From contig JABFRQ010000005.1 of NCBI GenBank assembly GCA_013141075.1, positions 434,001 to 498,000 of the forward strand: 64,000 bases of DNA, in the 5' to 3' direction. Shown piece by piece: positions 19,626-50,050 of the stretch. The notes beneath the pieces were generated by a model. That model was not told the DNA's origin. It searched no databases and worked only from the letters and a program-made list of their open reading frames with translations. Made by a program: the position numbers and the translations under genes. This DNA is from Methylotenera sp. (GTDB lineage Bacteria > Pseudomonadota > Gammaproteobacteria > Burkholderiales > Methylophilaceae). Position 1 is the first letter of the stretch. Every line of letters begins with the position of its first letter.

Positions 19626-19674
19626 TCGGTAGGTATAGGTGACGGGTCAGGGTTTTTTCGGTAGGTATAGGTGA
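19626..19674 (+). repeat. Paired 17-bp motif, left cargo boundary
   Basis: Two exact copies of TCGGTAGGTATAGGTGA start at 19626 and 19658, 32 bases apart. The 38-base span 19637-19674 recurs, slightly changed, at 44520-44558, and a degenerate pair lies at 52472-52511, all in the same orientation. tnpA homology stops exactly here, so the repeat marks a rearrangement junction. Confidence 0.75.
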
Positions 19675-22296
19675 ACGCGTCTGCGCAACTCAACACTTTG
19701 TAACCAGTCCAGAATAAACAGCGTGCGTTCTATGCGGCCTAGTTCACGTAGAGCTATAGCTAGGCCGTTCTGACGTGGATAACTGCCTAGTTTGCGTATC
19801 ATCAGTGAGGCAGTTACCGTCCCCTGCTTAATTGAAGCGGCCAGCCGTAAAATCTCATCCCAATGCGTACGAATGTGCTTGATATTTAGGGTACCACCGA
19901 TCATGGTATCCAGTGCTGGATAATCCTGTTTATTTTTTAGGATATACAGTTTGGTGTCTTTCAGATCGCGAATGCGCGGCGCAAAACGGAAGCCCAACAA
20001 ATGCATTAAACCAAATACATGATCGGTAAAACCTGCCGTGTCAGTATAATGCTCTTCAACTCGCAAATCAGATTCATGATATAGCAACCCATCAAGCACA
20101 TAGGTTGAATCGCGTACACCCACATTGACCAACTTGGTACTGAACGGCGCATACTGGTCAGAAATGTGAGTGTAAAATAATCTGCCAGGTTCACTGCCAT
20201 ATTTTGGGTTGATATGACCGCTACTTTCGGCTTTACTGCCTGCTCGGAAGCGCTGTCCATCTGACGATGATGTTGTGCCATCACCCCAGTTAGCGGCAAA
20301 AGACTGTCCAAACTGCGCATTGACTATATCTGCCAGCCCAGTCGAATAGGTTTCATCACGAATGTGCCATGCTTGGAGCCATGACAGTTTTGCGTAAGTC
20401 GTTGGGACTAGATTCAGCCATTTTGGTTAAGCCTAGGTTAATCGCATCGGCAAGTATGGCTGACAGTAATAACGTCCTATCTTTGACAGGCTCACCACCC
20501 TTTAAGTGCACGAAATGTCGTGTGAAGCCAGTCCAGTCATCAACGTCCATTAAAAGTTCGGTAATTTTGACGCGCGGCAATAGCATGCCTGTTTGGTCAA
20601 TAAGGAATTGTGCTGCTTCTGGTACAGCGGCATCCAGTGGTGTGATCTTCAATCCAGAGTCTGTGAATATTGCATCAGGCAGTTCATTGGCCAGAGCCAG
20701 CCTGTTGACTGTAGCCAGCTGTTGTTCTAATAGGGTTAGCCGATCATGCAGATATTGGTCACAGTCTGGATTGATAGCAATTGGTAATTCCTTTGCCTGT
20801 TTGAGCTCACTGAATTTATCCATAGGTAACAGATATTCATCAAAGTCTTTAAACTGGCGGGAGCCTTCTACCCATATGTCGCCTGAACGAAGTGCATTTT
20901 TCAGTTCCGATAACACGCAAATTTCGTAGTAACGACGGTCGAGACCATCATCCGTCAGCACAAGTGGTTTCCAGCGTGTTTTGATAAAATCTGTTGGTGC
21001 ATTTTCTGGTACTTTACGTGCGCTATCGGCATTCATGCCACGCAACACCTCAATAGCATCTAATACGATCTTTGCTGCTGGTGCCGCACGTAACTTGAGT
21101 ACCCCTAAAAACTCTGGCGTATAGCGGCGCAACATATTAAATTGTTCGCCAACCAAGTGTAGATGATCAAACGATTCCGGCTGTGCGAGTTGCTCGGCTT
21201 CGGTGACACTCTGCGTGAAATCATCCCAAGGAATGACGGCTTCAATGGCAGCATAGGGATCGCTGCCAGATTGCTTCGCCTTAACCAAGGCAAGGCCGAT
21301 TTTTGAATATAGCCTTACTTTATCGTTGATGACCTTGCCTTGTTTTTGGAATTGTTGCTGATGTTTGTTTTTGGCTGTGCTAAATAGCTTAACCAGAATG
21401 CGATCATGTAAATCAACCAATTCATCCGTGACTGTTGCCATTCCCTCTAAGGCCAGCGCGACCAACGTGGCATAACGTCGCTGCATCTCAAACTTGCTCA
21501 GGTCTTGTGGTGTCATTTGTCCACCTTCGCGTGCTAACTTCAGCAAGCGGTTTTGGTGAATATAGCGACCAATCCCTTCAGGTAAATCCAACTTTTGGAA
21601 TGCTTTTAATCGTTCGATATGTTCAAGCATATGCCGCGAATTTGGTTTCAGTGGTGACTGGCGTAACCAGATCAGCCAAGTGGTATTGTTATTTGGTTTG
21701 CGCTTCAGCAAATCATCTAGCCTACAACGATGTTGCTCAGTCAGCGGTTCAATTAATGTACGATAAATGCGCCTATTAGCATGTGTAATGGCTTCTGCAC
21801 AGGCTCTATCAATCACAGTAAGTGATGGTAACATAACCTGCCGATAGCGTAGCGTTTCCAACGCATGCGTTGCGAGTACCAGCCCCTTGTCGGTCTGCAT
21901 GGCAAGATCAATCAAATTGTGCAACAGAAAACGAAAATCAGACAGGCTAAATGGGGATAGCTTGAGGTAGGCGCGCAACTCCTGAAGATGTTCTCGCCGC
22001 GTTTCATCGCGCGCTCCATATTTATCCCACTCGCTTGCGTCAGTTTTGATTTGGCTGGCAGCCCATTGTATTAATGGTTTGGTGGCTGCCATGTCATTGG
22101 ATAGACCATATCCCGGATAACGCAACAGACAAAGTTGTACGGCAAAACCAAGTCTATTAGCATCACCTCGTCGTTGCCTAATCAGTGACAAATCAGGCTC
22201 ATTAAAAGTGTAGTAGCGAATTAAATCATCCTGATTTTCTGGAATCACTAGTAAGCTATCACGCTCTGAAACGGAAAGTATGGAACGACGAGACAT
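19647..22296 (-). pseudogene. tnpA: Tn3-family transposase tnpA, frameshifted and 3'-truncated
   Basis: Codons 1 to ~630 (22296 down to about 20410) encode a normal Tn3-family N-terminus (DUF4158-type start ...[32 protein letters not shown]) and the region [20 protein letters not shown] with the first catalytic Asp. Just after AESSP the frame slips by one base; the next frame continues [35 protein letters not shown]...[10 protein letters not shown] (second Asp)...[16 protein letters not shown] (Glu). The protein ends [12 protein letters not shown], whereas family members continue RRRVHAGLNKGE for about 60 more residues, so the 3' end was lost at the repeat junction. Not functional as it stands. 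Confidence 0.9.
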
Positions 22297-22355
22297 ATTC
22301 AGCTACCCACTCTATGGTTATAGTTTAAATTGAAGTGTCATTTACAATTCTCGTT

Positions 22356-23492
22356 TCACTCCCAGCTTAATGCACCACCTGTTTGATACTCAGTGACACG
22401 TGTTTCAAAGAAGTTTTTCTCTTTCTTTAAATCCATCATTTCGCTCATCCAAGGGAACGGGTTATTTGCACCTGGGTACAACACATCTAAACCAATTTGC
22501 TGGCAACGACGGTTGGCAATAAAGCGCAAATACTCCTTAAACATCGTCGCATTTAAACCCAGCACACCGCGCGGCATGGTGGCTTCAGCATATTGGTATT
22601 CCAACTCTACGCCGTGCTGCATGAGTGCTTTGAGTTCATCTCTGAATTCTACTGTCCATAAATGCGGGTTTTCTAGTTTGATGGTGTTAATCACATCAAT
22701 CCCAAAATTGCAGTGCATGGATTCATCGCGAAGAATATATTGATACTGCTCGGCCGCACCCGGCATTTTGTTTTGGCGGCCTAGGGCTAAAATCTGCACA
22801 AAACCGACATAGAAAAACAAACCTTCCATAATGCAAGCAAATACGATGAGCGAGCGTAACAATTGCTGGTCAGCTTCTGGTGTGCCTGTTTTAAAGGTGG
22901 GATCAGTCAGCGTATTGATGAATGGAATTAAAAAATCATCCTTGGCTTTAATGCTCGGCACTTCTTGGTAAGCGTTAAATATTTCGCTTTCATCTAACCC
23001 CAAACTTTCTACGATATATTGATAAGCATGGGTATGAATCGCCTCTTCAAAACCTTGGCGTAGCAAGTATTGACGACATTCAGGCGCGGTAATATGGCGA
23101 TATGTGCCAAGCACGATATTGTTCGCCGCGAGTGAATCAGCGGTGGTAAAAAAACCTAAATTACGTTTTATGATTAAGCGCTCATCGTCAGTGAGTGCGG
23201 TGCTGTCTTTCCACTGTGCAATATCACGGCTCATGGAGACTTCTTGCGGCATCCAATGATTAGCACATCCTGCTAGGTACTTATCCCACGCCCAATGATA
23301 CTTAAAAGGCACGAGCTGATTCACATCGGTTTGACCGTTTATCATGCGTTTATCGGAAGCGTTTACGCGGCCTGAATGTGATGGCTGATTGGCGGCAGTC
23401 GGTTTGGTAGGTGCTTCTGTCACTACCTTTAAGTTGGGACGTGATTCTGATTTATTTGGCGTAACGACAATATCATCTTCAAATGAAAGCAT
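22356..23492 (-). CDS. nrdB: Class Ia ribonucleotide reductase small subunit NrdB
   Basis: 378 residues; houses the diiron/tyrosyl radical cofactor. Metal ligands are visible in [16 protein letters not shown] (E..H) and ECMEGLFFY-like [14 protein letters not shown] plus [17 protein letters not shown] (E..H). The C-terminal tail [16 protein letters not shown] is the peptide that docks on NrdA. It follows nrdA after 34 bases and shares its B12-controlled transcript. The enzyme needs oxygen and iron but no adenosylcobalamin, in contrast to class II NrdJ. Downstream, only 59 bases separate it from the decayed tnpA. Confidence 0.96.
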
Positions 23493-23526
23493 ATTTTTTT
23501 CCTTAATTTTTTTGATTAATTTTTAG

Positions 23527-26364
23527 TTACTGGCAAGATTCGCACTCTGGGTTATCAATGGAACACATTTTTGGTGCTGGCTCTGATACATGCGCTGAAA
23601 CCGCATTGAGTTCACCGCCTGTGCCTGTCGATTTCTCAGCCGCTGTTGCACCTAATGAACGTAAGTAATAGGTGGTTTTTAAACCGCGCTGCCAAGCGAG
23701 CATGTAAGTATCGTTAAGCTTCTTGCCTGAAGGCACGGCAAAGTACAAGTTAAGCGATTGCGCCTGATCTATCCATTTTTGGCGGCGTGCAGCCGCTTCA
23801 ATTAACCAAGTCGGGTCAACATCAAACGCAGTGGCGTATAGTTGCTTCAAATCATCTGGTACACGTTCAATTTTTTGTAGAGAGCCATCGTAGTATTTCA
23901 AATCAGATACCATTACTGCATCCCATAGTTCACGGGTTTTTAAATCATTAACTAGTTGCTCATTCACAATGGTAAATTCGCCTGATAGGTTGGATTTCAC
24001 ATATAGGTTTTGGTATTCAGGTTCAATACTGGCGGAAACGCCGACGATGTTAGAGATGGTTGCAGTGGGGGCAATGGCTACGCAGTTAGAGTTACGCATA
24101 CCCACAGTTTGAATACGCTTGCGCAAGACTTCCCAATCAAGCGTTTTGCTTCTATTGACCTCTACATTGCCGCCACGCTCGCTCAGTAATAAATCTAGTG
24201 TATCGAGTGGCAAAATACCTTGATCCCACAAGCTACCTTTAAAGCTTGAATACGCGCCGCGCTCTTCTGCCAATACTGTCGAAGCGTAATAGGCGTTGTA
24301 GCACACCATTTCCATCGCACGGTCGGCAAATTCCACCGCTTCCATGCTGGCGTATGGAATGCGCATGGCATGTAAGCAATTTTGAAAGCCCATAATGCCC
24401 ATGCCGACAGGTCTGTGGCGAGTATTCGCATTGCGTGCTTTACCTACTGGGTAAAAGTTAATGTCCACCACGTTATCGAGCATACGCATGCCCACTTTGA
24501 TGGTGACTTGCAGTTTCTTGTTATCTAAAGCTAACTTCCCATCTACTTTAGTTAAATGTTGCAATAGATTTACTGAACCTAAATTACACACCGCAATTTC
24601 AGTGTCTGAAGTATTCAGTGTAATTTCCGTACATAGGTTTGAGCTATGCACCACGCCCACATGTTGCTGGGGTGAGCGGATATTGCATGGGTCTTTAAAA
24701 GTAATCCACGGATGACCAGTTTCAAACAGCATCGAAAGCATCTTGCGCCACATTTGCAATGCAGGAATTTTCTTAAACAACTTGATTTCACCGCTGTCTG
24801 CACGGCGTTCATATTCCACGTAGGCCGTTTCAAACGCTTTGCCGTATTTATCGTGCAAATCGGGCACATCTGATGGGGAAAATAATGTCCAGTCGCCATT
24901 CTCAGTCACGCGACGCATAAATAAATCTGGAATCCAATGTGCAGTATTCATGTCATGCGTGCGACGGCGATCATCACCCGTGTTTTTGCGTAGATCTAAA
25001 AATTCTTCAACGTCTAAATGCCAAGTTTCTAAATAACCGCACACTGCGCCTTTACGCTTGCCACCTTGGTTTACAGCCACAGCCGTATCGTTCACCACTT
25101 TCAAAAATGGAATCACACCTTGGCTTTTACCATTCGTGCCTTTGATGCGTGCACCTAATGAACGCACGGGCGTCCAATCATTGCCCAAGCCACCTGCATA
25201 TTTTTGCAACAGTGCATTTTCTTTAATGCCTTGATAGATGCTGTCCAAATCATCGTCCACGGTGGTTAAGTAACAGCTTGATAACTGCGAATGTAGCGTG
25301 CCCGCATTAAAAAGCGTGGGCGTTGAACTCATAAAATCAAACGTACTTAACACGTTGTAAAACTCGATGGCACGGGCTTCGCGGTCAATTTCATTCATCG
25401 CTAAACCCATGGCCACGCGCATAAAAAAGATTTGCGGTAACTCTATACGTCGTTCTTCAATATGTAAAAAGTAGCGGTCATACAGCGTTTGAATGCCTAA
25501 ATAACCGAATTGGAAATCGCGCTCCTTTTTAAGACTAGCTGCTAATTTAGTTAAATCAAACTGCGCTAAACGGGAATCTAACAAGCCTGCATCAATGCCA
25601 ATTTTGATGTAACGCGGAAAATATTCTGTGTAATGCGCATCCATCTCGACATGGCTCACGCGCTCACCTAGTACTTCTGCACGTACCAAATCTAACTGCA
25701 AACGGGCTGTGACATAATTGTAGGCAGGCTCAGTTTCAATCAGGCTACGGGCGGACAAAATCAACGCTTTGTACACCTCTGTAAATGGAATGCCATCATA
25801 CAAATCTCGCACGGCTTGCTCAACCACTAGGTTTGGATTCACTTCGTTACCCAAGTTTAGGCAGGCTTCACCGACCATATCACTGAGCTGCTTAATATCG
25901 AGCGGAGTCAACTTTCCATCAATATTTACATTAAGCACATGACTAGGTTCTGAGGTTGGGTGACTGGCTTTTTCAGCGGCCCGTTCGGCATTACGCTTTT
26001 CACGGTAAAGCACATAAGCACGCGCCACATCGTGATTGCCATTGCGCATGAGTGCCAACTCTACTTGGTCTTGAATATCTTCAATATGAATGGCACCACC
26101 AGCAGGCAATCGGCGCATCAAGGCGTTATTTACCAATTGACTTAAAATCGCCACTTGATCGCGCACCCGTTGCGAAGCCGCACTTTGATTGCCTTCAACT
26201 GCTAGAAAAGCTTTGGTAATAGCCACTGAAATTTTATCTAGGTGATATGCAACCACCGCGCCATTGCGTCGGATAACTTGTAGTGTAGGTGTTGATAGTG
26301 CTGACTCAGCACTTATTGAATCGGTATTAGATGACCTAATACTTGATGAAGTTACATCATCCAT
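23527..26364 (-). CDS. nrdA: Class Ia ribonucleotide reductase large subunit NrdA
   Basis: 945 residues reducing ribonucleoside diphosphates to deoxy forms. An N-terminal ATP cone (VIRRNGAVVAYHLDKISVAITKAFLAVEG) gives allosteric control. The catalytic barrel has SSCYLTT (active-site Cys), NLCTEI (N-x-C-x-E), AVCNLGSVNL and MRNSNCVAIAPTATISNIVG. The C-terminus ends CSIDNPECESCQ with redox-shuttle cysteines. A ~400-base leader on the minus strand contains a cobalamin riboswitch, an intrinsic terminator and about 155 bases of further leader before the ATG. Presence on a mobile island is unusual for an essential enzyme. Confidence 0.96.
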   Translation of the reverse strand: MDDVTSSSIRSSNTDSISAESALSTPTLQVIRRNGAVVAYHLDKISVAITKAFLAVEGNQSAASQRVRDQVAILSQLVNNALMRRLPAGGAIHIEDIQDQVELALMRNGNHDVARAYVLYREKRNAERAAEKASHPTSEPSHVLNVNIDGKLTPLDIKQLSDMVGEACLNLGNEVNPNLVVEQAVRDLYDGIPFTEVYKALILSARSLIETEPAYNYVTARLQLDLVRAEVLGERVSHVEMDAHYTEYFPRYIKIGIDAGLLDSRLAQFDLTKLAASLKKERDFQFGYLGIQTLYDRYFLHIEERRIELPQIFFMRVAMGLAMNEIDREARAIEFYNVLSTFDFMSSTPTLFNAGTLHSQLSSCYLTTVDDDLDSIYQGIKENALLQKYAGGLGNDWTPVRSLGARIKGTNGKSQGVIPFLKVVNDTAVAVNQGGKRKGAVCGYLETWHLDVEEFLDLRKNTGDDRRRTHDMNTAHWIPDLFMRRVTENGDWTLFSPSDVPDLHDKYGKAFETAYVEYERRADSGEIKLFKKIPALQMWRKMLSMLFETGHPWITFKDPCNIRSPQQHVGVVHSSNLCTEITLNTSDTEIAVCNLGSVNLLQHLTKVDGKLALDNKKLQVTIKVGMRMLDNVVDINFYPVGKARNANTRHRPVGMGIMGFQNCLHAMRIPYASMEAVEFADRAMEMVCYNAYYASTVLAEERGAYSSFKGSLWDQGILPLDTLDLLLSERGGNVEVNRSKTLDWEVLRKRIQTVGMRNSNCVAIAPTATISNIVGVSASIEPEYQNLYVKSNLSGEFTIVNEQLVNDLKTRELWDAVMVSDLKYYDGSLQKIERVPDDLKQLYATAFDVDPTWLIEAAARRQKWIDQAQSLNLYFAVPSGKKLNDTYMLAWQRGLKTTYYLRSLGATAAEKSTGTGGELNAVSAHVSEPAPKMCSIDNPECESCQ

Positions 26365-26520
26365 TTTAAAGCTCCCTTTATTTAAAGGGCAGGACTCTTT
26401 TTATTGGAAGATAGCTGTCATAAAAATATGAAAACTATTGCCTAACAAAAACCAGCATGGCGAAGCTGTACACTAGGTACATACTCCATCTGCCGAGGAC
26501 ACCCCGCCTCAAACGTTATA

Positions 26521-26554
26521 AAAATACTTTCACCCATCTAAAAAATAGGTGAAA
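26521..26554 (-). terminator. Intrinsic terminator, riboswitch expression platform
   Basis: On the minus strand, arms TTTCACC and GGGTGAAA form a hairpin followed by a T-rich GTATTTTTAT, only 5 bases after the riboswitch P1 closes. The simplest reading is that cobalamin binding favours this terminator and stops nrdAB transcription. Confidence 0.7.
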
Positions 26555-26558
26555 CATG

Positions 26559-26767
26559 TCTACGGCAGGTCTCCTGGCTTTCAGGTCATCATTATTTGTT
26601 GGCCTTCCCAAATTTCGTTACATCAAATTCAGTGGCAAATCCATTTAAACAAATAACTCGCTGATTACAGTTGCGGGGGCAGCTTCGGCATTGCGACTTT
26701 AACGATAAAAGTCACGCACCGTATTCCCTTTTATCTCAATCTTTGATTAAAGATTGAGAACCGTAGA
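26559..26767 (-). promoter_or_regulatory. Cobalamin (B12) riboswitch upstream of nrdAB
   Basis: Minus-strand aptamer with the perfect B12-box AGCCAGGAGACCTGCC (26564-26579), the upstream GCCACTG and GGGAAGGC elements, the CCCGCAACTGT segment, and a closing P1 helix in which TCTACGG (start) pairs with CCGTAGA (end). The predicted transcription start falls at its first base. It is 195 bases ahead of the nrdA start and 98 bases past the metE stop, so it controls nrdAB and not metE. B12 control of class I RNR is established in Streptomyces coelicolor. Confidence 0.95.
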
Positions 26768-26772
26768 TACGC

Positions 26773-26857
26773 ACTATAACGCAATATGGCTGGGTAATTC
26801 AATAGAAAAACACAATATATAGCTAAATATTGAAAATAAATAACTATATATGCTTTG
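26773..26857 (-). promoter_or_regulatory. nrdA promoter with two NrdR-like boxes
   Basis: Minus-strand -10 TATAGT (26778-26773) and -35 TTGAAT (26802-26797) with 18-base spacing place the start at the riboswitch edge. Just upstream are TAGCTATATATTGTGT (26825-26810), which matches the 3' 13 bases of the NrdR consensus (core CTATATATTG), and a weaker box around 26857-26842 (GCATATATAG). They lie 32 bases, about three turns, apart, the normal NrdR box spacing. NrdR represses RNR genes when dNTP/ATP is ample. No nrdR gene is in the window. Confidence 0.65.
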
Positions 26858-26864
26858 TCGTGTT

Positions 26865-29168
26865 TTACTCTTGCGGTATTGAAGTTAATTGATTTCTCAG
26901 ACTCTTTGCCACTGTGACCATATTTTCAAGTGCTTGCTTTGTTTCATCCCAACCACGGGTTTTTAGGCCACAATCAGGGTTAATCCAAAGTCGCTCAACA
27001 GGGATGACCTCTATTGCACGTCTGACCAGTTTTTCCATAGCCTCAACCGTTGGCACACGTGGTGAGTGAATATCATAAACACCAGGGCCAATTTCATTTG
27101 GGTATGAGAATTCGCCAAAAGCATCTAACAACTCCATCGCTGAACGTGAGGTTTCAATGGTAATCACGTCCGCATCCATGGCGGCAATGGCTGGCAAAAT
27201 ATCGTTAAACTCCGCATAGCACATATGCGTGTGAATCTGCGTGTCATCATGCGCCACGCTGGCGCTCAGTTTGAATGCACGTACCGCCCAAGCCAGATAT
27301 TGTATCCAAGCAGTCTTTTGCAATGGCAAACCTTCACGCAGTGCTGGTTCATCAATTTGAATAATGGCAATACCAGCTTTTTGCAAATCATCCACTTCAT
27401 CGCGTATGGCTAATGCCAATTGCAATGCCGTAGCTTCACGAGATTGATCATCACGCACAAACGACCATTGCAACATGGTGATCGGACCTGTCAGCATGCC
27501 TTTCACAGGTTTGTTAGAAAGGGATTGTGCAAATTGTGCTGTGGCTACCGTCATCGGTTGAGGTCTATAAACATCACCATAAATGACGGGTGGTTTAACG
27601 CACCGTGAACCATAACTCTGCACCCAGCCATTTTCGGTAAATGCATAGCCTGCTAATTGCTCTCCAAAGAACTCCACCATGTCATTGCGCTCGGCCTCGC
27701 CATGCACAAGCACATCTAGACCTAATATTTCTTGTTCACGAATCGCATACTCAATATGCGACTCCATATCAGCATCATACTTTTGTTGACTAATAGCACC
27801 TTTTTTTAATGCGGCACGGCTCGCGCGAATATCAGGTGTTTGCGGGAAAGAACCTATGGTTGTGGTTGGCAATAGCGGTAAATTTAAACGTGCTTTTTGT
27901 GCAATTTGACGCACTGGAAATGGACTGCGCCTATTTTCATTCACTGTGTTTAATAGGGCAATTCGAGCCTTAACACTGGCTGAATGAACTCGACCAGAAT
28001 TGTTGCGTGAAACAAGCACAGCCCGTGAAATCGCTAACTCATCTGCTACCGACTCAATACCATGATTCAATGCGTTAGTAATCACGCTAAGCTCAGTTAA
28101 CTTCTCATCAGCAAAGGCTAACCAAGACTTAATTTCAGCATCCAGTTTAACTTCATGTGCCAAAGTGACAGGCGTATGTAGTAGTGAGCAGCTAGGCGCC
28201 ACCCACAAACGTTCACCTAACCTTTGCACCCAAGGCGCTAATAATGCTAGCGTTTTGTCTAAATCATTGCGCCAAATGTTACGACCATCAATCACTCCTG
28301 CGGATAACACCCAATGGCTAGGAATGGCATTGATCCACGGCCCCAATTGTTCTGGCGCACGCACTAAGTCAATATGAATGCCATCTACAGGCAAGCGCGT
28401 TATGAAAGCCTGGTAACGCGAAACGTTAGCAAAGTAAGTCGTGAGCAATAGTTTCGGGCGCGATGTTCTAAACCAGGCATAAGCGCGCTCAAAAGCTTTT
28501 AACCAAACATCGTCTAAGTCCAATGCAAAAATAGGCTCATCAATTTGTAGCCATTCGATTTTTCTAGCGTGAAGCTCTTGTAGCAAATACGCATACTGCT
28601 GAACCAAGCTATCCAATAAATCTAGCTTGTTAATGTCACGTGCTTTACTCAAATATAAAAAGCTCACAGGCCCTAGTAATACTGGTTTCACATTCGAACT
28701 TAACTTTTGTGCTTCATCTAGCTGCGTCAGATAATCATGTGCGTTAATCGAGAACTGCGTATCGGCATTGAGTTCAGGTACGATGTAGTGATAGTTAGTG
28801 TCTAGCCACTTAGTCATTTCCATCGCAGGTTGCTCAATATTGCCGCGTGCAAGTGCAAAGTAAGCGTTTTCTGGGGATATATTTTTTGCACCGAAAGGTG
28901 TTTTGCCAAAACGCTTGGGTGATGCGCCAAACAACACAGTGTGATCCAATACGTGGTCGTATAAAGAAAAATCGTTACTGGTAACAAAGCTCAGGCCAGC
29001 CGCCTGTTGCTTTTTCCAATGCTCAGCACGTAAGGTTTGTGCTGTTTTCTGTAAAAAATCGGGCGACGATTCACCGCGCCAAAAAGATTCTAGTGCAAAT
29101 TTTAGCTCGCGTTTTTCGCCCACGCGCGGGTAGCCTAAAATGTGGGCTTTTATTGGTTGTTGTGCCAT
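26865..29168 (-). CDS. metE: Cobalamin-independent methionine synthase MetE
   Basis: 767 residues; transfers the methyl group from 5-methyl-tetrahydropteroyl-polyglutamate to homocysteine using zinc, without B12. N-terminal half starts AHILGYPRVGEKRELKFALESFW; C-terminal barrel has LPLLPTTTIGSFPQT, the zinc ligands in HTHMCYAEFND (His, Cys) and NPDCGLKTRGW (Cys), and VLVHGEAERNDMVEFFGE. Full length and intact. Divergent from metR with a MetR palindrome between. It adds to nrdAB as a second B12-sparing enzyme; unlike nrdAB it has no riboswitch of its own. Confidence 0.97.
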   Translation of the reverse strand: MAQQPIKAHILGYPRVGEKRELKFALESFWRGESSPDFLQKTAQTLRAEHWKKQQAAGLSFVTSNDFSLYDHVLDHTVLFGASPKRFGKTPFGAKNISPENAYFALARGNIEQPAMEMTKWLDTNYHYIVPELNADTQFSINAHDYLTQLDEAQKLSSNVKPVLLGPVSFLYLSKARDINKLDLLDSLVQQYAYLLQELHARKIEWLQIDEPIFALDLDDVWLKAFERAYAWFRTSRPKLLLTTYFANVSRYQAFITRLPVDGIHIDLVRAPEQLGPWINAIPSHWVLSAGVIDGRNIWRNDLDKTLALLAPWVQRLGERLWVAPSCSLLHTPVTLAHEVKLDAEIKSWLAFADEKLTELSVITNALNHGIESVADELAISRAVLVSRNNSGRVHSASVKARIALLNTVNENRRSPFPVRQIAQKARLNLPLLPTTTIGSFPQTPDIRASRAALKKGAISQQKYDADMESHIEYAIREQEILGLDVLVHGEAERNDMVEFFGEQLAGYAFTENGWVQSYGSRCVKPPVIYGDVYRPQPMTVATAQFAQSLSNKPVKGMLTGPITMLQWSFVRDDQSREATALQLALAIRDEVDDLQKAGIAIIQIDEPALREGLPLQKTAWIQYLAWAVRAFKLSASVAHDDTQIHTHMCYAEFNDILPAIAAMDADVITIETSRSAMELLDAFGEFSYPNEIGPGVYDIHSPRVPTVEAMEKLVRRAIEVIPVERLWINPDCGLKTRGWDETKQALENMVTVAKSLRNQLTSIPQE

Positions 29169-29239
29169 TTTCTATTCTCATCTCAAAGTAAGGCGTGCAT
29201 TTTGTGACGATAAAATAATTTAATAAAGCGAAAGTTTTT

Positions 29240-29268: not shown

Positions 29269-29288
29269 ATTACAAAGCTGAATAATCC

Positions 29289-34741: not shown

Positions 34742-34755
34742 TTACCCTTAAATTT

Positions 34756-37700: not shown

Positions 37701-38832
37701 GAAGGTCTATATATTGGCTGATGCGATCTGCCGCACGTTCTATCCGTTCTGGCATAGGAGTGTCGGTGTCGTAATCGACATCCAAATCAGCATCATGATG
37801 ACGTTCTTTGGCTGCAACTACGGTTGGTGCAATCGCGCCACCCAACTCTGTACTACCAACTTGCCAAGAGCGCTCCATAATGTCTAAGCCGATTGGCGAT
37901 GCTTCAAATTGAGTACGACTATGCGACATCAGTGTGATTAAATTGATAAATGGCACATTCAAACGTTGCAACAAGGGTACAGTGGTTTTTGGGTTCATAT
38001 CAAATTTGCCAGCCAGCATCAACACGCCTGCAACCCGCGATTTACCATTTTCATCCAACAACAACTTTTCAACTTCCAAGTCTGTTTTAATGCCGTAGGT
38101 CAATAATGGATTAAAGCCTCGCTCATCCAACGCTTTCGCCAAGGCAATCGGCGTTTCAGATTTGCCTGATAGTGCATTATTGCGATACATCAAAATACCT
38201 ACCCAGGCTCGACCAGGCTTACACACCGCACAATCTTTTTGATAACCTGCAAAGTCATCGTAAGTACGGTTGTTATACGGGTTGTAATATGCAAGCTCTG
38301 GCAGTTTATTGGGCAGGTCAATCAATTGTAATTTTAACTGCGTTGCTACTGCGGCACGCACCATATTAGCCATGTTGACTGCACCGCCTGCTTCTTTATA
38401 CGCGGTGAGTTCTGGCTTTTTGCTCAAGCCAAAACTGGGGAAATCCGCATCCCACACATTGCCCACAATATAAGCGCTACCACCTGCTTTTGTCGCTTGT
38501 TTGATATCTTCACCCGCCAAATCAATAAAGCGGCGACCCACGCTGGTAGAGATGAAAATATGTTGCGATTGTTTGAGAAAAGTCGTGTCCGCACGAGCTC
38601 TATCTGGCGCTGCCTGTGAAGGAAAATCAAGCATAGACCACACTTTGATTTGCACCTCTCGCATTGCTGGGTCTGCTTTGAGCAAATGCGCCGCATCTAC
38701 GGCTGTGGCTGTATCATTGCCGCCCATCATTAAGCTTACCTTAATTGGCGCGGCGAGCGCAGTAAAAGAAAGCATCAATATACTTGCTAGGCAAGCGCGC
38801 AATAACGCCAATATATGGTTATTGCGGCACAT
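34756..38832 (-). CDS. Periplasmic membrane-anchored CobN/HmuS-like chelatase-family protein
   Basis: 1358 residues from ATG 38832 (an upstream frame to 38865 is possible but puts 11 residues before the signal peptide). Signal peptide [20 protein letters not shown]; CobN/BchH-type body with [20 protein letters not shown] (~residue 567; cytoplasmic CobN usually has GTLEW), [30 protein letters not shown] and [36 protein letters not shown]. Then a low-complexity Gln/Lys/Pro linker and a C-terminal membrane helix with RRKQS after it. So the enzyme faces the periplasm, unlike cobaltochelatase CobN. No cobS/cobT partner is here. Closest relative in my knowledge is HmuS of Bacteroidetes hmu loci, implicated in haem metal removal. 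Confidence 0.85.
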   Translation of the reverse strand: [1358 protein letters not shown]

Positions 38833-39154
38833 AAACCACTCTGCCATCTGCCAGTTGGTAGGCAATGCCTAATTTCTGACCTTCGCCAGATAACTTTTTG
38901 TCGGTCACTTTAGTCACTTTAATTTCTTTACCTTTGCGTGTGATAATTTCAACTTGCCCATCAGCGCCTTTTTTGGTCATGGTGACTTCTGCATTGGGGT
39001 CAAGCAAATCCATCATGTTATAAGCCATAAACAAGGCCAACATCATGGATACAATAAAAACGATGCTGGCATCAAATAAATTAGCGACACCAGCAATGGG
39101 GTCTTCTAAAGCTTCTTCAGCTTCAAATCGGCGGTGGCGGCGTAAATAGCGCAT
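38819..39154 (-). CDS. DUF2149 membrane protein
   Basis: 111 residues. The motif RRFEAEEALEDPIAGVANLFDASIVFIVSMMLALFMAYNMMDLL combines a conserved DP-x-AGVANLFD stretch and a single membrane helix, followed by a small periplasmic domain (VEIITRKGKEIKVTKVTDKKLSGEG...GIAYQLADGRVVYVP). Layout resembles ExbD/TolR. It lies one base from the ExbB-like gene stop and overlaps the CobN-like start by 14 bases, so the three are translationally coupled. DUF2149 is repeatedly found next to CobN-like and ExbB-like genes. Confidence 0.8.
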   Translation of the reverse strand: MRYLRRHRRFEAEEALEDPIAGVANLFDASIVFIVSMMLALFMAYNMMDLLDPNAEVTMTKKGADGQVEIITRKGKEIKVTKVTDKKLSGEGQKLGIAYQLADGRVVYVPQ

Positions 39155-39155
39155 A

Positions 39156-39728
39156 TTAGCTTTCTTGCTCCAATTTGCCTGTACGTACGACCATTTCGGT
39201 TAAAAACTCCATTTCACGCACATCGGCACGCACCCACTTTTCACGCTTGAGCGCAATCAAATACGCCACAACACCACAGCCCAAGCCAGCCACTGTTGCC
39301 GTAAATGCGGTAACCATGCTGCCTGCCATTTTTGGAATATTACCTTCAGCCAATGCTGCTAAAGAAATACCCATTGGTATGAGCGTACCCATCAAACCCA
39401 GTGCGGGACCAACCTTGATGACAAAGCGAATACGGTCTAGTTTTTTTGCCATCTCCAACTCAGTTTTTTGTAGCAGTCGCTCAAGTCTAGCGTCTAAATG
39501 TTCTACATTTTGCGCTAATTTACTGGCGACGTTTTTTCGATAAACGCGCAAATCAGGCGCACCATGACGATTTCTATCCCACGCATCACGCAACATGATG
39601 CCTAATGACAATGTCACATAAAGGGTGAGTAAAGTACAACCGCCAATAACGGGCAAATACAGTGAACTCGCCACATGATACAAAAACTGTTCAATGGCGT
39701 GTATCAGTGGCAACAAGTTGAATTCCAT
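39156..39728 (-). CDS. MotA/TolQ/ExbB-family proton channel protein
   Basis: 190 residues, three membrane helices. The C-terminal pair FVIKVGPALGLMGTLIPMGISLAALAEGNIPKMAGSMVTAFTATVAGLGCGVVAYLIAL is the ExbB/TolQ signature. First gene of the ExbB-like - DUF2149 - CobN-like - TonB2 operon, downstream of a terminator. With DUF2149 in the ExbD position it probably forms a proton-motive-force-driven complex that energises the CobN-like protein or the receptor. Confidence 0.88.
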   Translation of the reverse strand: MEFNLLPLIHAIEQFLYHVASSLYLPVIGGCTLLTLYVTLSLGIMLRDAWDRNRHGAPDLRVYRKNVASKLAQNVEHLDARLERLLQKTELEMAKKLDRIRFVIKVGPALGLMGTLIPMGISLAALAEGNIPKMAGSMVTAFTATVAGLGCGVVAYLIALKREKWVRADVREMEFLTEMVVRTGKLEQES

Positions 39729-39765
39729 ATATTTCCTAAAATAAAAAAACTAATCCAAGATTACA

Positions 39766-39812
39766 AAAAAGCACTTTATTCAAGCTTAAGCTGAACGAAG
39801 TGCTTTTTCTAG
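39766..39812 (-). terminator. Terminator between the PepSY and ExbB-like genes
   Basis: Arms AAAAGCACTT and AAGTGCTTTT enclose an AGCTTAAGCT-containing loop with T/A tracts on both sides. It suggests that TonB1-PepSY and ExbB-DUF2149-CobN-TonB2 are separate transcripts, or that readthrough is limited. Confidence 0.65.
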
Positions 39813-39823
39813 AAGTGTGTGAT

Positions 39824-41065
39824 TTACGTTCTACTTCGCAACAATGGTTTTAGTCGCCCCAATAGTGCTAAAACACCAATCGTTTCTGGCTTGGTACTGG
39901 CTATTTCTTTTGGATTTGCCGCTTCACGCGCCCTGAGTTTTTTTAAATAAATAATAAAACCCGTTACGCAGATAATGGTAATGACGATACCGCTTAACAA
40001 AATAATAATCTGTCCAACTATGCCAAATACGCGGCCTGAGTGAAGTGGCAACTGCCACGCATTAAAAGTATCGCCTGCGGTTTCTAGGTTGCGGTCATGC
40101 ACATGTAGCAAATCACCCGTAATGGCATTGACATAAACTTTAGTCATACCCACTTCTTTGGTTAAATCGTTTTCACCCTTGAGCGATACAATAAATTTGC
40201 GTGTATCTGGTAAAAAGCTAATCGATCCAACCGTTAAATCAGGCCTGGTTTGTTGTGCTAATTTGATTGCTTCATCCCATGAAGCTGTTTTATCTATCCA
40301 ATTGGCTTTAGGGTCAACGTGACAAGCACATTCTGTTTTAGTGACAGGTGAGAACTTATTCACCACCCATTTAAATTGGTCGTTCAGGTTTAGATATACG
40401 CTAGATAATGACAAAGCAAGTAACACGGGCAAAATCCACATACTGCCTGAACGGTGCATGTCAAAATTTAATTTGTAGCCGCCTGTACGCCAACGAAATT
40501 GGAATGACTTTCTCCAATTCTTTAAATTAGGGAAAGAAATATACACAGCACCAAAGTGATCCAATAACCACAACAAGGCTGCAATACCAATCACCCATTT
40601 ACCAAAAGCACCCGCATACCAGGTGTAATGCAGCTTAACTATCATGGGGATAATATGACGCTTATCTACACCAAACACGCCATTCTCACGCGAGCCTAGC
40701 ACCTTGCCTGAATAGGGGTTCACAAATACGGTATGGTATTTACCCTCACTGTCAAAAATGCTTTTATCTTCAGCATTTTTGGTAGCAGGCGTGCGTAAGT
40801 AAAACTCCATAGAGCGGTCTGCTGATTCATTATTGGTGCGCACAAACGTGACGCGCTTACCAGGATATACCTCTTCAGCAATAGGCACTAGCTGATCCAT
40901 CGCCATTTTTTGCTCACCTGGCTGAATATAAAACCAGTCATCATTTAAAGTGTGGTCTAGCTCTTTATCAAACGCAATAATGACGCCTGTGATTGCCGCA
41001 ACAGCAATAAACAACAAGACTGCCAAACCAACCCAACGATGTAGAAATACAATAGCTTTGCGCAT
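39824..41065 (-). CDS. PepSY-associated transmembrane protein
   Basis: 413 residues from ATG 41065, preceded by GAGGGT; the in-frame TTG two codons upstream is less likely. Helices at RWVGLAVLLFIAVAAITGVII, VIGIAALLWLLDHFGAVYISF, MWILPVLLALSLSSVYLNL and IVGQIIILLSGIVITIICVTGFIIYLKK. HR near the N-terminus and other His (KLHYTWYAG, MHRSGSMW) are of the type that could hold haem in the PepSY_TM/FpvG-like family, known for reduction of iron complexes during siderophore uptake. Follows TonB1 by 25 bases. Confidence 0.85.
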   Translation of the reverse strand: MRKAIVFLHRWVGLAVLLFIAVAAITGVIIAFDKELDHTLNDDWFYIQPGEQKMAMDQLVPIAEEVYPGKRVTFVRTNNESADRSMEFYLRTPATKNAEDKSIFDSEGKYHTVFVNPYSGKVLGSRENGVFGVDKRHIIPMIVKLHYTWYAGAFGKWVIGIAALLWLLDHFGAVYISFPNLKNWRKSFQFRWRTGGYKLNFDMHRSGSMWILPVLLALSLSSVYLNLNDQFKWVVNKFSPVTKTECACHVDPKANWIDKTASWDEAIKLAQQTRPDLTVGSISFLPDTRKFIVSLKGENDLTKEVGMTKVYVNAITGDLLHVHDRNLETAGDTFNAWQLPLHSGRVFGIVGQIIILLSGIVITIICVTGFIIYLKKLRAREAANPKEIASTKPETIGVLALLGRLKPLLRSRT

Positions 41066-41090
41066 AGTCAACCCTCTTTAACTAATTTAA

Positions 41091-43394
41091 TTAAAACGCG
41101 GCAGACACTGACACTGACGCACTACGCCCTGGCATTAAATAATACTCATAATATTCTTTATCAAACACATTACTCACAGCAAGGCTTGCTTTATATTGTT
41201 TGTTAATTTGATAGCCTATTTTTAAATCAGTGAGCCAATATTTGCTATAACCCCCAAACACATCTTTTTCAATATCCGTATTTAAGTTATCTGCTGAACC
41301 CCAAATTTCACCTGTATAGCGGGAAGAAATAATGCCTGTCCAATCGCCTTTTTTGAGCTCAAAACCAATGCTTGCCATATCCTTGGGGACGTTTGACAGT
41401 CGTTTACCAACCATTCCAGCATTCGCCCCGCCATCACTCGTGATTTTTGCATTCGTATGCGAATAGCTGGCATTCACGCTTAACCAATCAGACACTGGCA
41501 TGTCGCCGCTTAATTCAAAGCCACGGATTCTCGCACCTGCTACATTATCCTGTTGCCCATGATAATCAATTTTGTTTGTTGTGCCAGCGAGCGTGTACTG
41601 TGCTACTTTAGTCACTTTTTGATAAATCATATCCCGCATGGTTGTGTCATAATAAGCAGCCTTTAAGCTCCCTCCATGACCAATAGCCATGTCTGCTGAA
41701 ACATCCCATGACCTTGATTTTTCAGGTTCTAAGTTAGGATTTGACAGAATAAGCTTACCGTTAGGAGCTGCGGCACCTGAGAATGTTGGATTCGTGTATA
41801 GCTCATAATTATTAGGAGCGCGGAACCCTGTGCCTATAGAGCTTTTAAGTGTTAATTGGTCATTAAACTGATAAACCGCCGATAGCTTTGGATTAAAAGC
41901 ATTTTCTGTGCGCTCTGGGTTCACACTGTTTAATGCAGGATTTGCAAAATCTAAAGATTTACCGTGTGATTGCCATACATCGTAGCGCCCACCTGCATAA
42001 ACTAGCCACTTATCTGCGATAGAAATTTGATCTTGTAAAAATAATGAAGTCGTTGTGCTGACACCTTCACTACTTGTATTGACCTTGATGTCACTCCCAA
42101 TATCTTGCCAATTAGCCAAAGCAATTTTTTTATTATTCAACGTCGCACGATCATAAGCCAAACCTGTAACCATTAGTTGATTATCACCTAGCGGAAAGGT
42201 CAATTCTGCTGAAGTTTCTGTTCTACTGCTTGGCGAACTAGTTAATGTACCTGGCCCTGCATTCCACGTTGCTGTGCTTGAGGCACCCGATGACCACCGA
42301 TCAAAATCAGTTTTTGAAACCTTGACTTTAAGTTTGGAATCATTAAACACTGCTGTATCGATACCTGCAAAATACCTCCATGACTCTTGCCCGCCAGGAT
42401 TTGAACCAAAAAATGCCGACTCTTTTAAGGTGGCATTTTTGCCATTTACATTTAAATTCACATTGGTATTATTGGCAGGTAGCACAATGGGTTGACCTGT
42501 TGCTTGGTTGATTAAATAGAGATGATATGGTCGAGTAATGTTTTTATCATCCGTATAAGAAATTCCAGCATTTAATTGGGTTGTCGGCGAAACATCATAA
42601 AATAACTTTAAGTTCGCATTCGTGGCTCTTGATGCGTTGTCGCCTTTATCGCCGATGATATTTGTCTTAACGCCTTGCGGCGTTAAGGTAGGTCGAATGC
42701 CAGAAACACCTATAGAGCTAGGTAATAAAGCAGCCGTAGGGTTTGCAAGTGTCACAAATTCATAGGGATAACCATCTCTATCATCATGAGCAACATTAAG
42801 CACAACGCCAAGGCCATTCTCAAATTTATCGCGATAACCCGCTTCTATTTTTGTACGCGATAAATCTGAGAAGCCTTCAGTAATTTTGGCGGTAAACTCT
42901 CGCTTGGTTGGTTTTTTAGTGATTATACTCACTACGCCACCTAAGGCTGCACTACCATATAAGGCCGAACCAACCCCAGGAATCACCTCGATACGCTCAA
43001 TGTCATTCATTGAAACTGAAGACCAATTTATTTGCCCTGAATAAGCATCTGTTAGCGATTGACCATCCACCAAGAGTAAATTTCGGTTAATCCCCATACC
43101 ACGAAAACTGATTTGCATGGTGTTGCCTGCTCTTCCGCCATCAACAGCTCCTCCCCGCAAATACAAACTAGGAACTTTCGCAGTAAGGGCATCACCAATG
43201 ACGTTATTATTGCCATTCTCAAGTTGTTTTGAACTTACAACTGTCACGTTAGCTGGTGCATCTTTAATGCGTTGCTCAATTTTACTTGCACTAACCACCA
43301 CGGAATCTAGTTCAATCGCATTTTCTTCTGCATACACGGTTTGGCTCAATGCCAGCGAAATTGCACTTAAAGCAAAAATTGAATTCCCCTTCAT
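41091..43394 (-). CDS. TonB-dependent outer-membrane receptor 1 (BtuB/haem/siderophore-like)
   Basis: 767 residues from ATG 43394 (GGGGTAGG about 5 bases upstream). Signal peptide NSIFALSAISLALSQTVYAEE; TonB box ELDSVVVSASKIEQ; plug SFRGMGINRNLLLVDGQSLTDAYSG...IERIEVIPGVGSALYGSAALGGVVSIITKKP; barrel with C-terminal KEYYEYYLMPGRSASVSVSAAF. The plug is of the BtuB/CirA/haem receptor group. No cobalamin riboswitch lies upstream. With the PepSY gene it probably takes up a metal chelate, perhaps a haem- or corrinoid-type ligand. Confidence 0.9.
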   Translation of the reverse strand: MKGNSIFALSAISLALSQTVYAEENAIELDSVVVSASKIEQRIKDAPANVTVVSSKQLENGNNNVIGDALTAKVPSLYLRGGAVDGGRAGNTMQISFRGMGINRNLLLVDGQSLTDAYSGQINWSSVSMNDIERIEVIPGVGSALYGSAALGGVVSIITKKPTKREFTAKITEGFSDLSRTKIEAGYRDKFENGLGVVLNVAHDDRDGYPYEFVTLANPTAALLPSSIGVSGIRPTLTPQGVKTNIIGDKGDNASRATNANLKLFYDVSPTTQLNAGISYTDDKNITRPYHLYLINQATGQPIVLPANNTNVNLNVNGKNATLKESAFFGSNPGGQESWRYFAGIDTAVFNDSKLKVKVSKTDFDRWSSGASSTATWNAGPGTLTSSPSSRTETSAELTFPLGDNQLMVTGLAYDRATLNNKKIALANWQDIGSDIKVNTSSEGVSTTTSLFLQDQISIADKWLVYAGGRYDVWQSHGKSLDFANPALNSVNPERTENAFNPKLSAVYQFNDQLTLKSSIGTGFRAPNNYELYTNPTFSGAAAPNGKLILSNPNLEPEKSRSWDVSADMAIGHGGSLKAAYYDTTMRDMIYQKVTKVAQYTLAGTTNKIDYHGQQDNVAGARIRGFELSGDMPVSDWLSVNASYSHTNAKITSDGGANAGMVGKRLSNVPKDMASIGFELKKGDWTGIISSRYTGEIWGSADNLNTDIEKDVFGGYSKYWLTDLKIGYQINKQYKASLAVSNVFDKEYYEYYLMPGRSASVSVSAAF

Positions 43395-43561
43395 TTTCCT
43401 ACCCCAATAAATAGTTATAAGTTTCAACACGCTACTATATTGGAAAATAACCATATTTGGAATGTGGCAAATTGTCGCACTTAATTGTTTTTATTGAATA
43501 TTTATGTTTTTTGTAAAACTTAAGTGACCCTATAAATACTTCTAAAAGCATTGTTATGGGT

Positions 43562-43625
43562 GCAAGATTTATTACGAATAATTAAAGAAGCCTGCGCGAA
43601 TAGTTTGACTGGTATTAAATTGCTT
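43562..43625 (+). pseudogene. Relic of the metR 3' end
   Basis: The 64 bases from CAAGATTTATTACG to TTAAATTGCTTT match the last codons of metR at 30133-30197 with roughly 85-90% identity, including the terminal ...REASLTGIKLL-like coding. It is not identical, so it comes from another metR allele rather than a recent copy. It lies 0.17 kb upstream of TonB1 and just before tnpR. Confidence 0.8.
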
Positions 43626-43653
43626 TGACTTGTTGGTTAGGTGTTTTATGAAG

Positions 43654-43740
43654 ATTGCGCAAACGTTCATTTGCGCAATTAAAATTCGCTTCACATAAAA
43701 CAAGGGCTTGCGCATTGCGTAAATGTATTGCAAAATACAA
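43654..43740 (+). promoter_or_regulatory. res-like resolvase site
   Basis: A 10-bp dyad ATTGCGCAAA-CGTTCA-TTTGCGCAAT at 43654-43679, followed by related elements (TTGCGCATTGCG, 43703 on; TTGCAAAATACAA, 43729 on) directly before tnpR. Arrangement as crossover plus accessory subsites suits a serine-resolvase res site and tnpR autoregulation. Confidence 0.6.
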
Positions 43741-43766
43741 TCAAATGGCAACAGGAATTCGCAACG

Positions 43767-44321
43767 ATGCGCATCGGTTATGCACGTGTTTCTACGCAGG
43801 AACAAGACAATCAATTACAAATCACAGCACTCAAGGAAAATGGGTGCGAATTGATATTTCAGGAGAAGGCTTCTGGTGGTCGCTGGGATCGGCCAGAACT
43901 TCATCGATTGCTAGGACAATTACGCAAAGGTGATGTCGTTGCAGTTTGGAAATTAGATCGACTATCACGATCACTGAAAGACTTGCTACTCACGCTGGAA
44001 AAGATCGAAGAAGCGGGAGCGGACTTTCAAAGTCTGACCGAAGCGATAGATACATCTACACCAGCTGGTCGAATGATGATGCAAATCGTTGGTTCGTTTG
44101 CAGAATTTGAGCGCGCCATGCTACGTGAGCGAACTAAAAATGGGCTCGAGGCTGCACGACAAGAAGGCAGAATTGGTGGGCGCCGTCCAAAACTAACTCA
44201 GCAACAACAGAAAGAAATTATCACGTTCGTAACGTCTGGCCAAAAAACAGGTGCTGATGCTGCTAGGTTATTTCAGGTGCATCCGTCAACGGTTGTGCGC
44301 TTGTTAGCAAAAAACCGATAA
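43767..44321 (+). CDS. tnpR: Serine resolvase TnpR (Tn3-family)
   Basis: 184 residues starting MRIGYARVSTQEQDNQLQI, with the nucleophile Ser in ARVST, catalytic Arg residues in KLDRLSRSLKDLL and AEFERAMLRERTKNGLEAAR, and a C-terminal Hin-type HTH (GADAARLFQVHPSTVVRLL). An in-frame ATG at 43728 exists, but the family alignment starts at 43767. It resolves cointegrates of Tn3-type transposons. Its own tnpA partner would be the broken gene 21.5 kb away at 19.6-22.3 kb; nothing proves that they belonged to one element. Confidence 0.92.
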   Translation: MRIGYARVSTQEQDNQLQITALKENGCELIFQEKASGGRWDRPELHRLLGQLRKGDVVAVWKLDRLSRSLKDLLLTLEKIEEAGADFQSLTEAIDTSTPAGRMMMQIVGSFAEFERAMLRERTKNGLEAARQEGRIGGRRPKLTQQQQKEIITFVTSGQKTGADAARLFQVHPSTVVRLLAKNR

Positions 44322-44777
44322 AGTGTAATGAATTTAGCTTAGCGTACAATTTTTTCCGTTTTCTGCGTTCGCCCCTAATAATGTATTTTTAAGAGCGTGG
44401 CAGACAGAGTTAACGATAGTTTTGTAGATACGCTACCGCGCTTCGCTTGCTTCCTTAATTTTTCATGTTGATAAACTACAATCAACACGAAAAATTCAAG
44501 GCGAATATTCAGGTTAAATAGGTGACGGGTCAGGCAATTTTTCGGTAGGTATAGGTGACGGCATTATTTAATTTAGCGGAGGCGAAAAAAAACGTATAAG
44601 AATTCCCGCCAATTCGTCTCGCGTCACTGTTTACGTACGATAATGAGTGTGAAGGTAGTGAGCTCATCCAGTGCTAATAATCAAGAGCCGTGTAAGTGTT
44701 GTTAGCAAATGAGGGCTTTATCCACTAGTCTGAATTAACGGCGCTTATCTTTGCGTTTATTTACGAGTATCCATTTT
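44322..44777. other. Intergenic region with large hairpin and repeat pair
   Basis: 456 bases without a gene. A 16-bp dyad with one mismatch, AATTTTTCATGTTGAT / ATCAACACGAAAAATT around an 8-base loop, spans 44457-44496 and may terminate tnpR. A degenerate 17-bp motif (44509-44525) and an exact copy TCGGTAGGTATAGGTGA (44542-44558) follow, 33 bases apart. The text around 44591 (CGTATAAGAATTCCCGCCAA) also matches 19601-19620 with 2 changes, so the homology between the two boundaries extends beyond the motif pair. Confidence 0.7.
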
Positions 44778-50040: not shown

Positions 50041-50050
50041 ATCAATGCCC

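Follow-up and report, generated by a model that had tools for sequence, protein, structure and literature searches.

A Tn3-Family Transposon of Methylotenera-Type Bacteria and Its Probable Passenger Kit for Vitamin B12 Independence

The Transposon in the Window

The stretch of DNA considered here (the window) consists of 64,000 nucleotides of a Methylotenera sp. genome (GenBank assembly GCA_013141075.1) and corresponds to bases 434001–498000 of its contig C1 (716,975 bases). The host genome, labelled G000, amounts to 2.48 megabases in 11 contigs and is 90.4% complete and 0.02% contaminated. In the window, a transposase gene and a resolvase gene enclose the genes of two enzymes that work without vitamin B12 (B12), namely the ribonucleotide reductase (RNR) NrdAB and the methionine synthase MetE, together with a cobalamin riboswitch. 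These genes are likely to be the passengers of a Tn3-family transposon of Methylotenera-type bacteria, of which the window would hold a decayed copy joined to another gene cluster. Its parts are the following (positions in the window; percentages are identities; IR, inverted repeat; bp, base pairs).

19672..22296, minus strand: damaged tnpA (Tn3 family), with Pfam DUF4158 and DDE_Tnp_Tn3; 95.3% to the intact tnpA (989 residues) of contig C2
22356..23492, minus strand: nrdB, beta subunit of B12-independent RNR; PF00268; NF005550 684 bits (cut-off 309)
23527..26364, minus strand: nrdA, alpha subunit with ATP-cone; PF02867, PF00317, PF03477; NF005544 1683 bits (cut-off 965)
26547..26780, minus strand: cobalamin riboswitch in the nrdA leader; RF00174 120.7 bits, E 1e-29, gathering score 31.5
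26865..29168, minus strand: metE, cobalamin-independent methionine synthase; PF01717 and PF08267
29289..30200, plus strand: metR-like LysR regulator, divergent from metE; PF00126 and PF03466
30135..30208, plus strand: left copy of the metR 3′ end; 87.8% to 43563–43635, 93.2% to C2
30209..43562 (13,354 bases), no strand: insert without counterpart in the compact transposon copies, from comparison with C2
43563..43635, plus strand: right, different copy of the metR 3′ end, beside tnpR; 95.9% to genome G126, 93.2% to C2, 87.8% to the left copy
43767..44321 (open reading frame listed from 43728), plus strand: tnpR, serine resolvase of 184 residues, frame intact; PF00239; 99.5% in amino acids to the C2 copy
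44338..44375, minus strand: 38-bp terminal IR of GGGG...TAAG type at the tnpR end; 1 substitution from the tnpR-end IR of C2

The Pfam matches of nrdB, nrdA, and metE all exceed the Pfam cut-offs and the riboswitch scores far above its gathering score, so that the presence of nrdAB, metE/metR, and a B12 riboswitch, proposed in a first-pass annotation of this DNA, is borne out. The name metR is based on the position of this gene beside metE. The transposon copy is decayed at the tnpA end and is split between metR and tnpR by 13.35 kilobases (kb). The tnpA frame is broken between the open reading frames 20356–22296 and 19647–20132, and the match to the C2 copy stops at 19672, which means that approximately the last 114 of 989 codons are gone together with the IR of that end. 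The same annotation had described both tnpA and tnpR as remnants; this is true of tnpA, whereas tnpR retains its 184 codons and a 38-bp IR.

A Compact Copy in the Same Genome

A search of the host genome for RNR large subunits gave three places: the window nrdA, an nrdA on contig C2, and an nrdJ on C1. The C2 stretch (locus L006) matches window positions 19672–30208 at 91.75% over 10.5 kb and positions 43562–44377 at 91.05%, and the counterparts of these two segments are adjacent in C2. The order there is IR, tnpR (184 residues), metR, metE, cobalamin riboswitch (117.5 bits), nrdA, nrdB, tnpA (989 residues), and IR. The two IRs, of 38 bp and GGGG...TAAG type (L006 5524–5561 and 17138–17175), have 2 differences, and the encoded TnpA reaches 1240 bits against NF033527 (cut-off 500). 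By its sequence the C2 copy appears to be a compact and complete Tn3-family transposon of 11.65 kb.

A Third Copy in Another Genome

The C2 element was searched in 187 genomes of the family, and most of it was found only in the host and in G136, another metagenome-assembled genome (MAG) of the genus with about 4% contamination. Three copies of the transposon are thus available, two in the host genome and one in another MAG. The G136 copy lies on two contig ends, one reading IR, tnpR, metR, and truncated metE (89%) and the other truncated nrdA, nrdB, tnpA, and IR (90%); IRs are therefore present at both of its outer ends, and in the window only at the tnpR end. On their outer sides, the two IRs are bordered by ...CCAATCG and AATCGCAAGC..., which makes a direct duplication of the 5 bp AATCG. 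When the flanks are joined with one AATCG kept, an open frame of 258 codons runs across the junction, which reads like UmuC in our own reading of the sequence and not by a profile match. A 5-bp target duplication is a hallmark of Tn3 transposition. Because AATCG stands at both outer ends inside this umuC-like frame, the G136 copy can be taken as sequence evidence that the element transposed with its cargo.

Two further genomes, G126 and G127, hold pieces of tnpA or tnpR only (92–93%). In G126 the flanks of two end pieces differ (TTATT and TTATA; a third piece, on C28, lies outside the comparison), and this was counted against a simple insertion there. In the same genome, the tnpR end at C1:1–823 (L040) continues into the final 73 bp of metR, where the contig stops, and the metE and nrdA of the element have no match in this genome; the piece is possibly a version of the transposon with other cargo.

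Since the C2 copy is compact without bases 30209–43562, and since metR directly follows tnpR in G136 as well, the 25-kb block between the transposase and resolvase genes of the window is not one unit, as had been supposed at first: bases 30209–43562 interrupt a transposon which is compact elsewhere in the same genome.

The 13.35-kb Insert

Eight genes are recognized in the insert.

30270–31895, plus strand: CrtI/CrtO-superfamily oxidoreductase; below the NCBIfam cut-offs
31978–32589, minus strand: ActR/PrrA/RegA-like regulator; 197 bits (cut-off 250)
32642–34741, minus strand: TonB receptor
34756–38865, minus strand: CobN-type chelatase
38819–39154, minus strand: DUF2149 protein
39156–39728, minus strand: MotA/ExbB protein
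39824–41071, minus strand: PepSY_TM protein
41091–43454, minus strand: TonB receptor

The CrtI-like enzyme and the RegA-type regulator of the first-pass annotation keep their superfamily assignment, with scores below the NCBIfam cut-offs, and the cluster of TonB, PepSY, ExbB, DUF2149, and CobN genes is present as described, with two receptors. The better of these two has its best score against a haem receptor model, both being below the cut-off. The best solved relative of the chelatase is HmuS (431 bits), followed by CobN (382), and its H584 aligns with the catalytic His-538 of HmuS. An excerpt of PMC12583661 gives His-538 as conserved across the whole chelatase superfamily and describes the HmuS family by a methionine-rich insertion (domain IV) and the cavity histidines His-538 and His-1209. 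Like the hmu operon of Bacteroidota in that excerpt, the insert combines the catalytic His with TonB receptor, ExbB, and DUF2149 neighbours, and of the parts of the six-gene hmu operon it holds the TonB receptors and the CobN-type, ExbB, and DUF2149 genes. Unlike HmuS, the window chelatase is without the methionine-rich insertion (the alignment leaves no room for it, and 2 Met occur in those 80 residues) and has Asp in place of His-1209. A true HmuS operon was considered and rejected, as these two defining features are missing. No hemophore family appeared among the eight proteins in general scans, which included no search aimed at HmuY. A role of the CobN cluster in B12 biosynthesis was also discarded, given that the host gave no match for the corrin-ring enzyme CbiC, which was detected in only 3 of the 187 genomes of the family, and that the better receptor scores best on the haem model. 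The protein would be a periplasmic metal-tetrapyrrole chelatase of uncertain substrate, most likely haem, and the insert a putative uptake cluster for a metal-tetrapyrrole, probably haem.

CobN-type genes occur in 19 of the 187 family genomes. In G128, a related set shares a 20-kb stretch with a RegA-like gene. In no other family genome does the window CobN gene match at the DNA level over a stretch above about 120 bases. Some match to the insert turned up in 82 of the 187 genomes, for the most part in the RegA-like stretch, and RegA-like genes are widespread in the family. A second copy of the RegA-TonB-CobN set (98.3%) lies beyond the C2 transposon, beginning about 460 bp from it (L137, C2 536000–542553); its CobN frame is broken, and the contig ends inside it.

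The insert is bounded by two versions of the last 73–74 bp of metR which differ by 12%, and two transposon copies may have met at this junction. The transposon would have become joined to the 13.35-kb cluster perhaps through recombination in which a further copy of the transposon took part. To the right of the insert, the transposon sequence of the window resembles G126 (93.8%) more than C2 (90.8%), and the window tnpA, metR, and nrdA are closest to C2. The idea that the left part is closest to C2 throughout was dropped: metE (90.6 versus 89.5%) and nrdB (93.6 versus 92.6%) are slightly closer to G136 than to C2 over the parts compared. This mixed pattern leaves the origin of the junction less certain than an account with just two lineages would have it. 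A 41-bp direct repeat of REP-like look (REP, repetitive extragenic palindromic) is found at both ends of the 25-kb block (19635–19674 and 44518–44558, 92.7%), and its exact 18-mer core occurs at 3 of 203 loci, all 3 overlapping the window.

It could be argued that a single 25-kb transposon carried the B12 kit and the metal-tetrapyrrole set as joint cargo, of which the compact copies are deletion derivatives. All these window genes indeed lie between tnpA and the tnpR end with its IR, the second copy of the cluster is close to the C2 transposon, and the G126 tnpR end stops in metR with no metE or nrdA match. Nevertheless, such an origin is unlikely: the C2 copy is without the insert and metR directly follows tnpR in G136, the window element is without one IR, and the second cluster copy stands outside the IR, with its broken CobN frame at a contig end; the two metR ends, leaning to different copies, argue weakly in the same direction (74 bases). 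The transferable “cofactor economy” cassette of the first-pass annotation is consequently divided. Mobile B12 independence is supported, whereas the joint tetrapyrrole cargo is not.

B12 Dependence of the Host and Proposed Function of the Kit

The host has a B12-dependent class II RNR, NrdJ (738 residues, TIGR02504 567 bits, cut-off 400), on C1 and also the B12-dependent methionine synthase MetH. MetH was found in 172 of 187 family genomes and in 118 of the 119 better ones, and the core methionine synthase of the family is B12-dependent. Among the RNR matches listed, most of those remaining beside the NrdA type are of NrdJ type, and a third type of about 450 bits occurs in two genera. The comparison suggested by the first-pass annotation, for nrdJ, metH, and cob genes, thus gave NrdJ and MetH in the host and no CbiC match. 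In the family, one of the three CbiC matches is weak and contains stops; among corrin and salvage genes, the search covered CbiC alone. According to an excerpt of PMC6794327, pelagic Methylophilaceae do not synthesize B12, and isolates from sediment possess a complete route for its synthesis or salvage. The near-absence of CbiC in the 187 genomes sits uneasily with the sediment report of that excerpt, and salvage could reconcile the two.

Two cobalamin riboswitches, the only ones detected in the host genome (90% complete), score 120.7 and 117.5 bits against a threshold of 31.5 and precede the two transposon nrdA genes, each upstream of nrdA and on its strand. The window nrdA leader also has a weak terminator-like site at 26554–26528 (1 found, 0.6 expected). 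Binding of cobalamin to riboswitches of this kind turns off the genes under their control, and metE is activated by MetR together with homocysteine. With ample adenosylcobalamin, nrdAB would be kept off by the riboswitch, and the host would rely on NrdJ and MetH. During a shortage of adenosylcobalamin, nrdAB would be switched on, while homocysteine would accumulate and, acting via MetR, would raise metE. DNA precursors and methionine could in this way be made without B12. From what is generally known of these families, we infer that the kit would stay mostly silent in the presence of B12 and become active in its absence.

A different function has also to be weighed, in which the kit answers a demand for oxygen-dependent growth or deoxynucleoside triphosphates (dNTP), with class I NrdAB serving fully oxic growth and metE as a mere passenger. 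Class I RNR needs oxygen and NrdJ does not. The RegA-like gene nearby is of redox type, the carrier G136 may make corrinoids itself, and B12-independent RNRs work in a limited oxygen range according to an excerpt of PMC6461909. This function is judged improbable, as a high-scoring cobalamin riboswitch stands before nrdA in both G000 copies, metE, the other B12 bypass, is present in all three copies seen, and nrdA and metE each have a riboswitch on a Methylocella plasmid.

Origin of the Cargo and Selection on It

The first-pass annotation had stated that the same gene order in nearly all relatives, with the Tn3 parts missing, would make the block ordinary core genome. The metE and nrdA matches lie within about 4 kb of each other and without transposon parts in at least 20 of the 187 family genomes (hand count, G000 and G136 excluded), which is not nearly all of them. 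The operon flanks in four relatives (G116, G115, G148, and G141) share no gene, except for one weak match between two of them (38% over 185 residues), and thus belong to four different places. A cobalamin riboswitch lies between metE and nrdAB in several transposon-free relatives, for example G116, G115, and G070. No IR-like sequence was detected at transposon-free metE-nrdAB in 11 loci from 9 genomes, with up to 11 substitutions allowed.

NrdA-type matches above 600 bits occur in 34 of the 187 genomes. In a midpoint-rooted NrdA tree of 33 rows, representing 32 of these 34 genomes (G000 twice; G178 and G179 without locus), the three transposon rows form one clade with support 96/92 inside the chromosomal ones. 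Because of this position, the operon of a relative was probably captured once onto the transposon, which would then have spread. Between the two G000 copies, synonymous and other codon changes number 262 and 34 in nrdA, 182 and 40 in metE, 67 and 7 in nrdB, and 39 and 7 in metR. The cargo frames are open in both copies, whereas the window tnpA is decayed. Mostly synonymous changes are as expected if selection acted on the cargo, as judged by codon counts and not by a formal ratio of nonsynonymous to synonymous rates (dN/dS).

The least probable explanation, an ordinary chromosomal metR-metE-nrdAB operon near which Tn3 parts landed by chance, can point to the relatives where metE lies near nrdAB without Tn3 parts, several with a riboswitch between, and is opposed by the IRs that bracket exactly this gene set in C2, by the same bracket with a target duplication inside the umuC-like frame of G136, by the single clade of the transposon copies, and by the four different places of the operon in four relatives.

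Weighing the Transposon Reading

That one transferable element carries B12-independent replacements for both NrdJ and MetH is supported by the matched IRs and the intact tnpA and tnpR of C2 and by the AATCG duplication of G136. Several points weigh against a transposon with a B12-independence kit. Most of the element is present in only 2 of the 187 genomes, both of them draft assemblies. In G136 the copy is divided between two contigs, which do not cover its middle. The C2 copy is without a 5-bp target duplication (AAATA versus TACTT), and its present flanks are therefore not those of a simple insertion. In the window, metE is without a riboswitch of its own. Finally, G136, the other carrier, has a strong CbiC match (238 bits, C203:2626–3216), one of two clear ones among the 187 genomes; it may make corrinoids and would thus have less need of the kit. 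With these points taken into account, we still hold the transposon with its B12-independence kit to be the likely explanation.

The Surrounding Island

The transposon copy and the insert sit inside an integrative element of about 50 kb (8951–59000) at a gene for transfer RNA (tRNA), in agreement with the tRNA island of the first-pass annotation. Its left end is marked by two features.

8951–9029: tRNA-Met gene
9090–10097: integrase, after tRNA-Met

The element is recognized because this integrase lies beside tRNA-Met and the last 45 nucleotides of tRNA-Met recur exactly at 58907–58951, forming att repeats; a wider repeat, 8982–9078 versus 58904–59000, is 91% alike. The island has genes for replication and transfer of plasmid type (TrfA, TrbL, PF07996, and MobC) and encodes, in addition, a ParA-like protein and a relaxase-like protein with an LPD7 domain. 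Two sets of defence genes are close together within positions 44778–58769, Wadjet (JetABCD, type I models), accompanied by a WYL regulator, and Gabija (GajAB). An AbiE-like toxin-antitoxin pair at 52685–54410 (helix-turn-helix and nucleotidyltransferase-like proteins) is recognized by sequence reading, with no PADLOC match. Composition was tried as a sign of foreign origin and found uninformative, the guanine plus cytosine fraction of the block (0.40–0.48) being about that of the first 9 kb of the window (0.43–0.47).

Comparison with Known Systems

B12-free isozymes under B12 control are known, as in the nrdABS genes of Streptomyces. The transposon resembles such systems, in which a B12 riboswitch controls class I nrdAB or metE beside NrdJ or MetH. 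It differs from them in that nrdAB and metE are together the cargo of a transposon and that the riboswitch is on nrdAB only; a metE riboswitch is the subject of an excerpt of PMC11260477.

A second comparison is offered by plasmids. A search of 72,556 plasmid records with an E limit of 1e-100 located NrdA on 178 of them and MetE on 114. With the overlap taken from the best 60 matches of each, metE and nrdA are close together on at least 4 records of 3 unrelated species (Acaryochloris marina pREC2, Methylocella tundrae twice, and Azospira sp. I09 pAZI09), and the stretches examined in Acaryochloris, Methylocella, and Azospira contain 1, 2, and 2 cobalamin riboswitches. These plasmids are like the transposon in having metE and nrdA about 1–9 kb apart with cobalamin riboswitches. 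They are unlike it in their distant sequence (NrdA 64–70% and MetE 52–59% in amino acids) and in being large plasmids, two typed conjugative and that of Methylocella non-mobilizable. On other NrdA plasmids (Legionella adelaidensis, Phyllobacterium, and Aureimonas), no metE is annotated within 6 kb, and a riboswitch is present in 2 of the 3.

The plasmid loci also show some features of their own. On Methylocella tundrae plasmid 3 (L231, 10429–29209), metE and nrdAB are adjacent, with one riboswitch before nrdA and one before metE. In Acaryochloris pREC2 (L230, 75391–94180), they are adjacent with a cobalamin riboswitch. The conjugative Azospira pAZI09 (L229, 40795–69527) has metE, B12 uptake-like and adenosyltransferase genes, aerobic and anaerobic RNRs, and two riboswitches, and the block is followed by an integrase and a Tn3 transposase.

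As a plain count, the pairing of metE with nrdAB suggests a repeated solution, in a sample where large plasmids are over-represented. Tentatively, escape from B12 dependence might be a mobile trait, in which a riboswitched metE and nrdAB kit has been assembled on transposons and plasmids more than once and moves among B12-reliant bacteria with a B12 sensor of its own, its RNR half staying silent when the vitamin is available. The lineages concerned would be the Tn3 element of Methylotenera and plasmids of a cyanobacterium, an alphaproteobacterium, and another betaproteobacterium. Both common B12 bypasses, with a sensor shutting one of them off, would make a B12-dependent cell conditionally independent in one event, and such a transposon could explain patchy distributions of metE and nrdAB.

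Among the titles and abstract openings listed in searches of open-licence papers, none describes a transposon with metE and nrdAB. Over 80 TnpA loci, the best segments reach 97% in two Methylotenera contigs and then run from 85% down to 75%; metE-nrdAB cargo is present at 1 of these 80 (the G136 contig), a number of which end at contig edges. DNA relatives on plasmids comprise 30 records, and the 20 among the matches listed all hit tnpA at about 71%; the plasmid relatives are annotated “TnAs1 family.” The element is like other Tn3-family transposons, presumably those of the Tn21 group in particular, in its TnpA of 989 residues, its 38-bp GGGG...TAAG IRs, its serine resolvase, and the 5-bp duplication seen in G136. 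It is unlike them in its cargo, a bypass of housekeeping enzymes with its riboswitch, and would thus show a Tn3 element carrying bypass genes of core metabolism.

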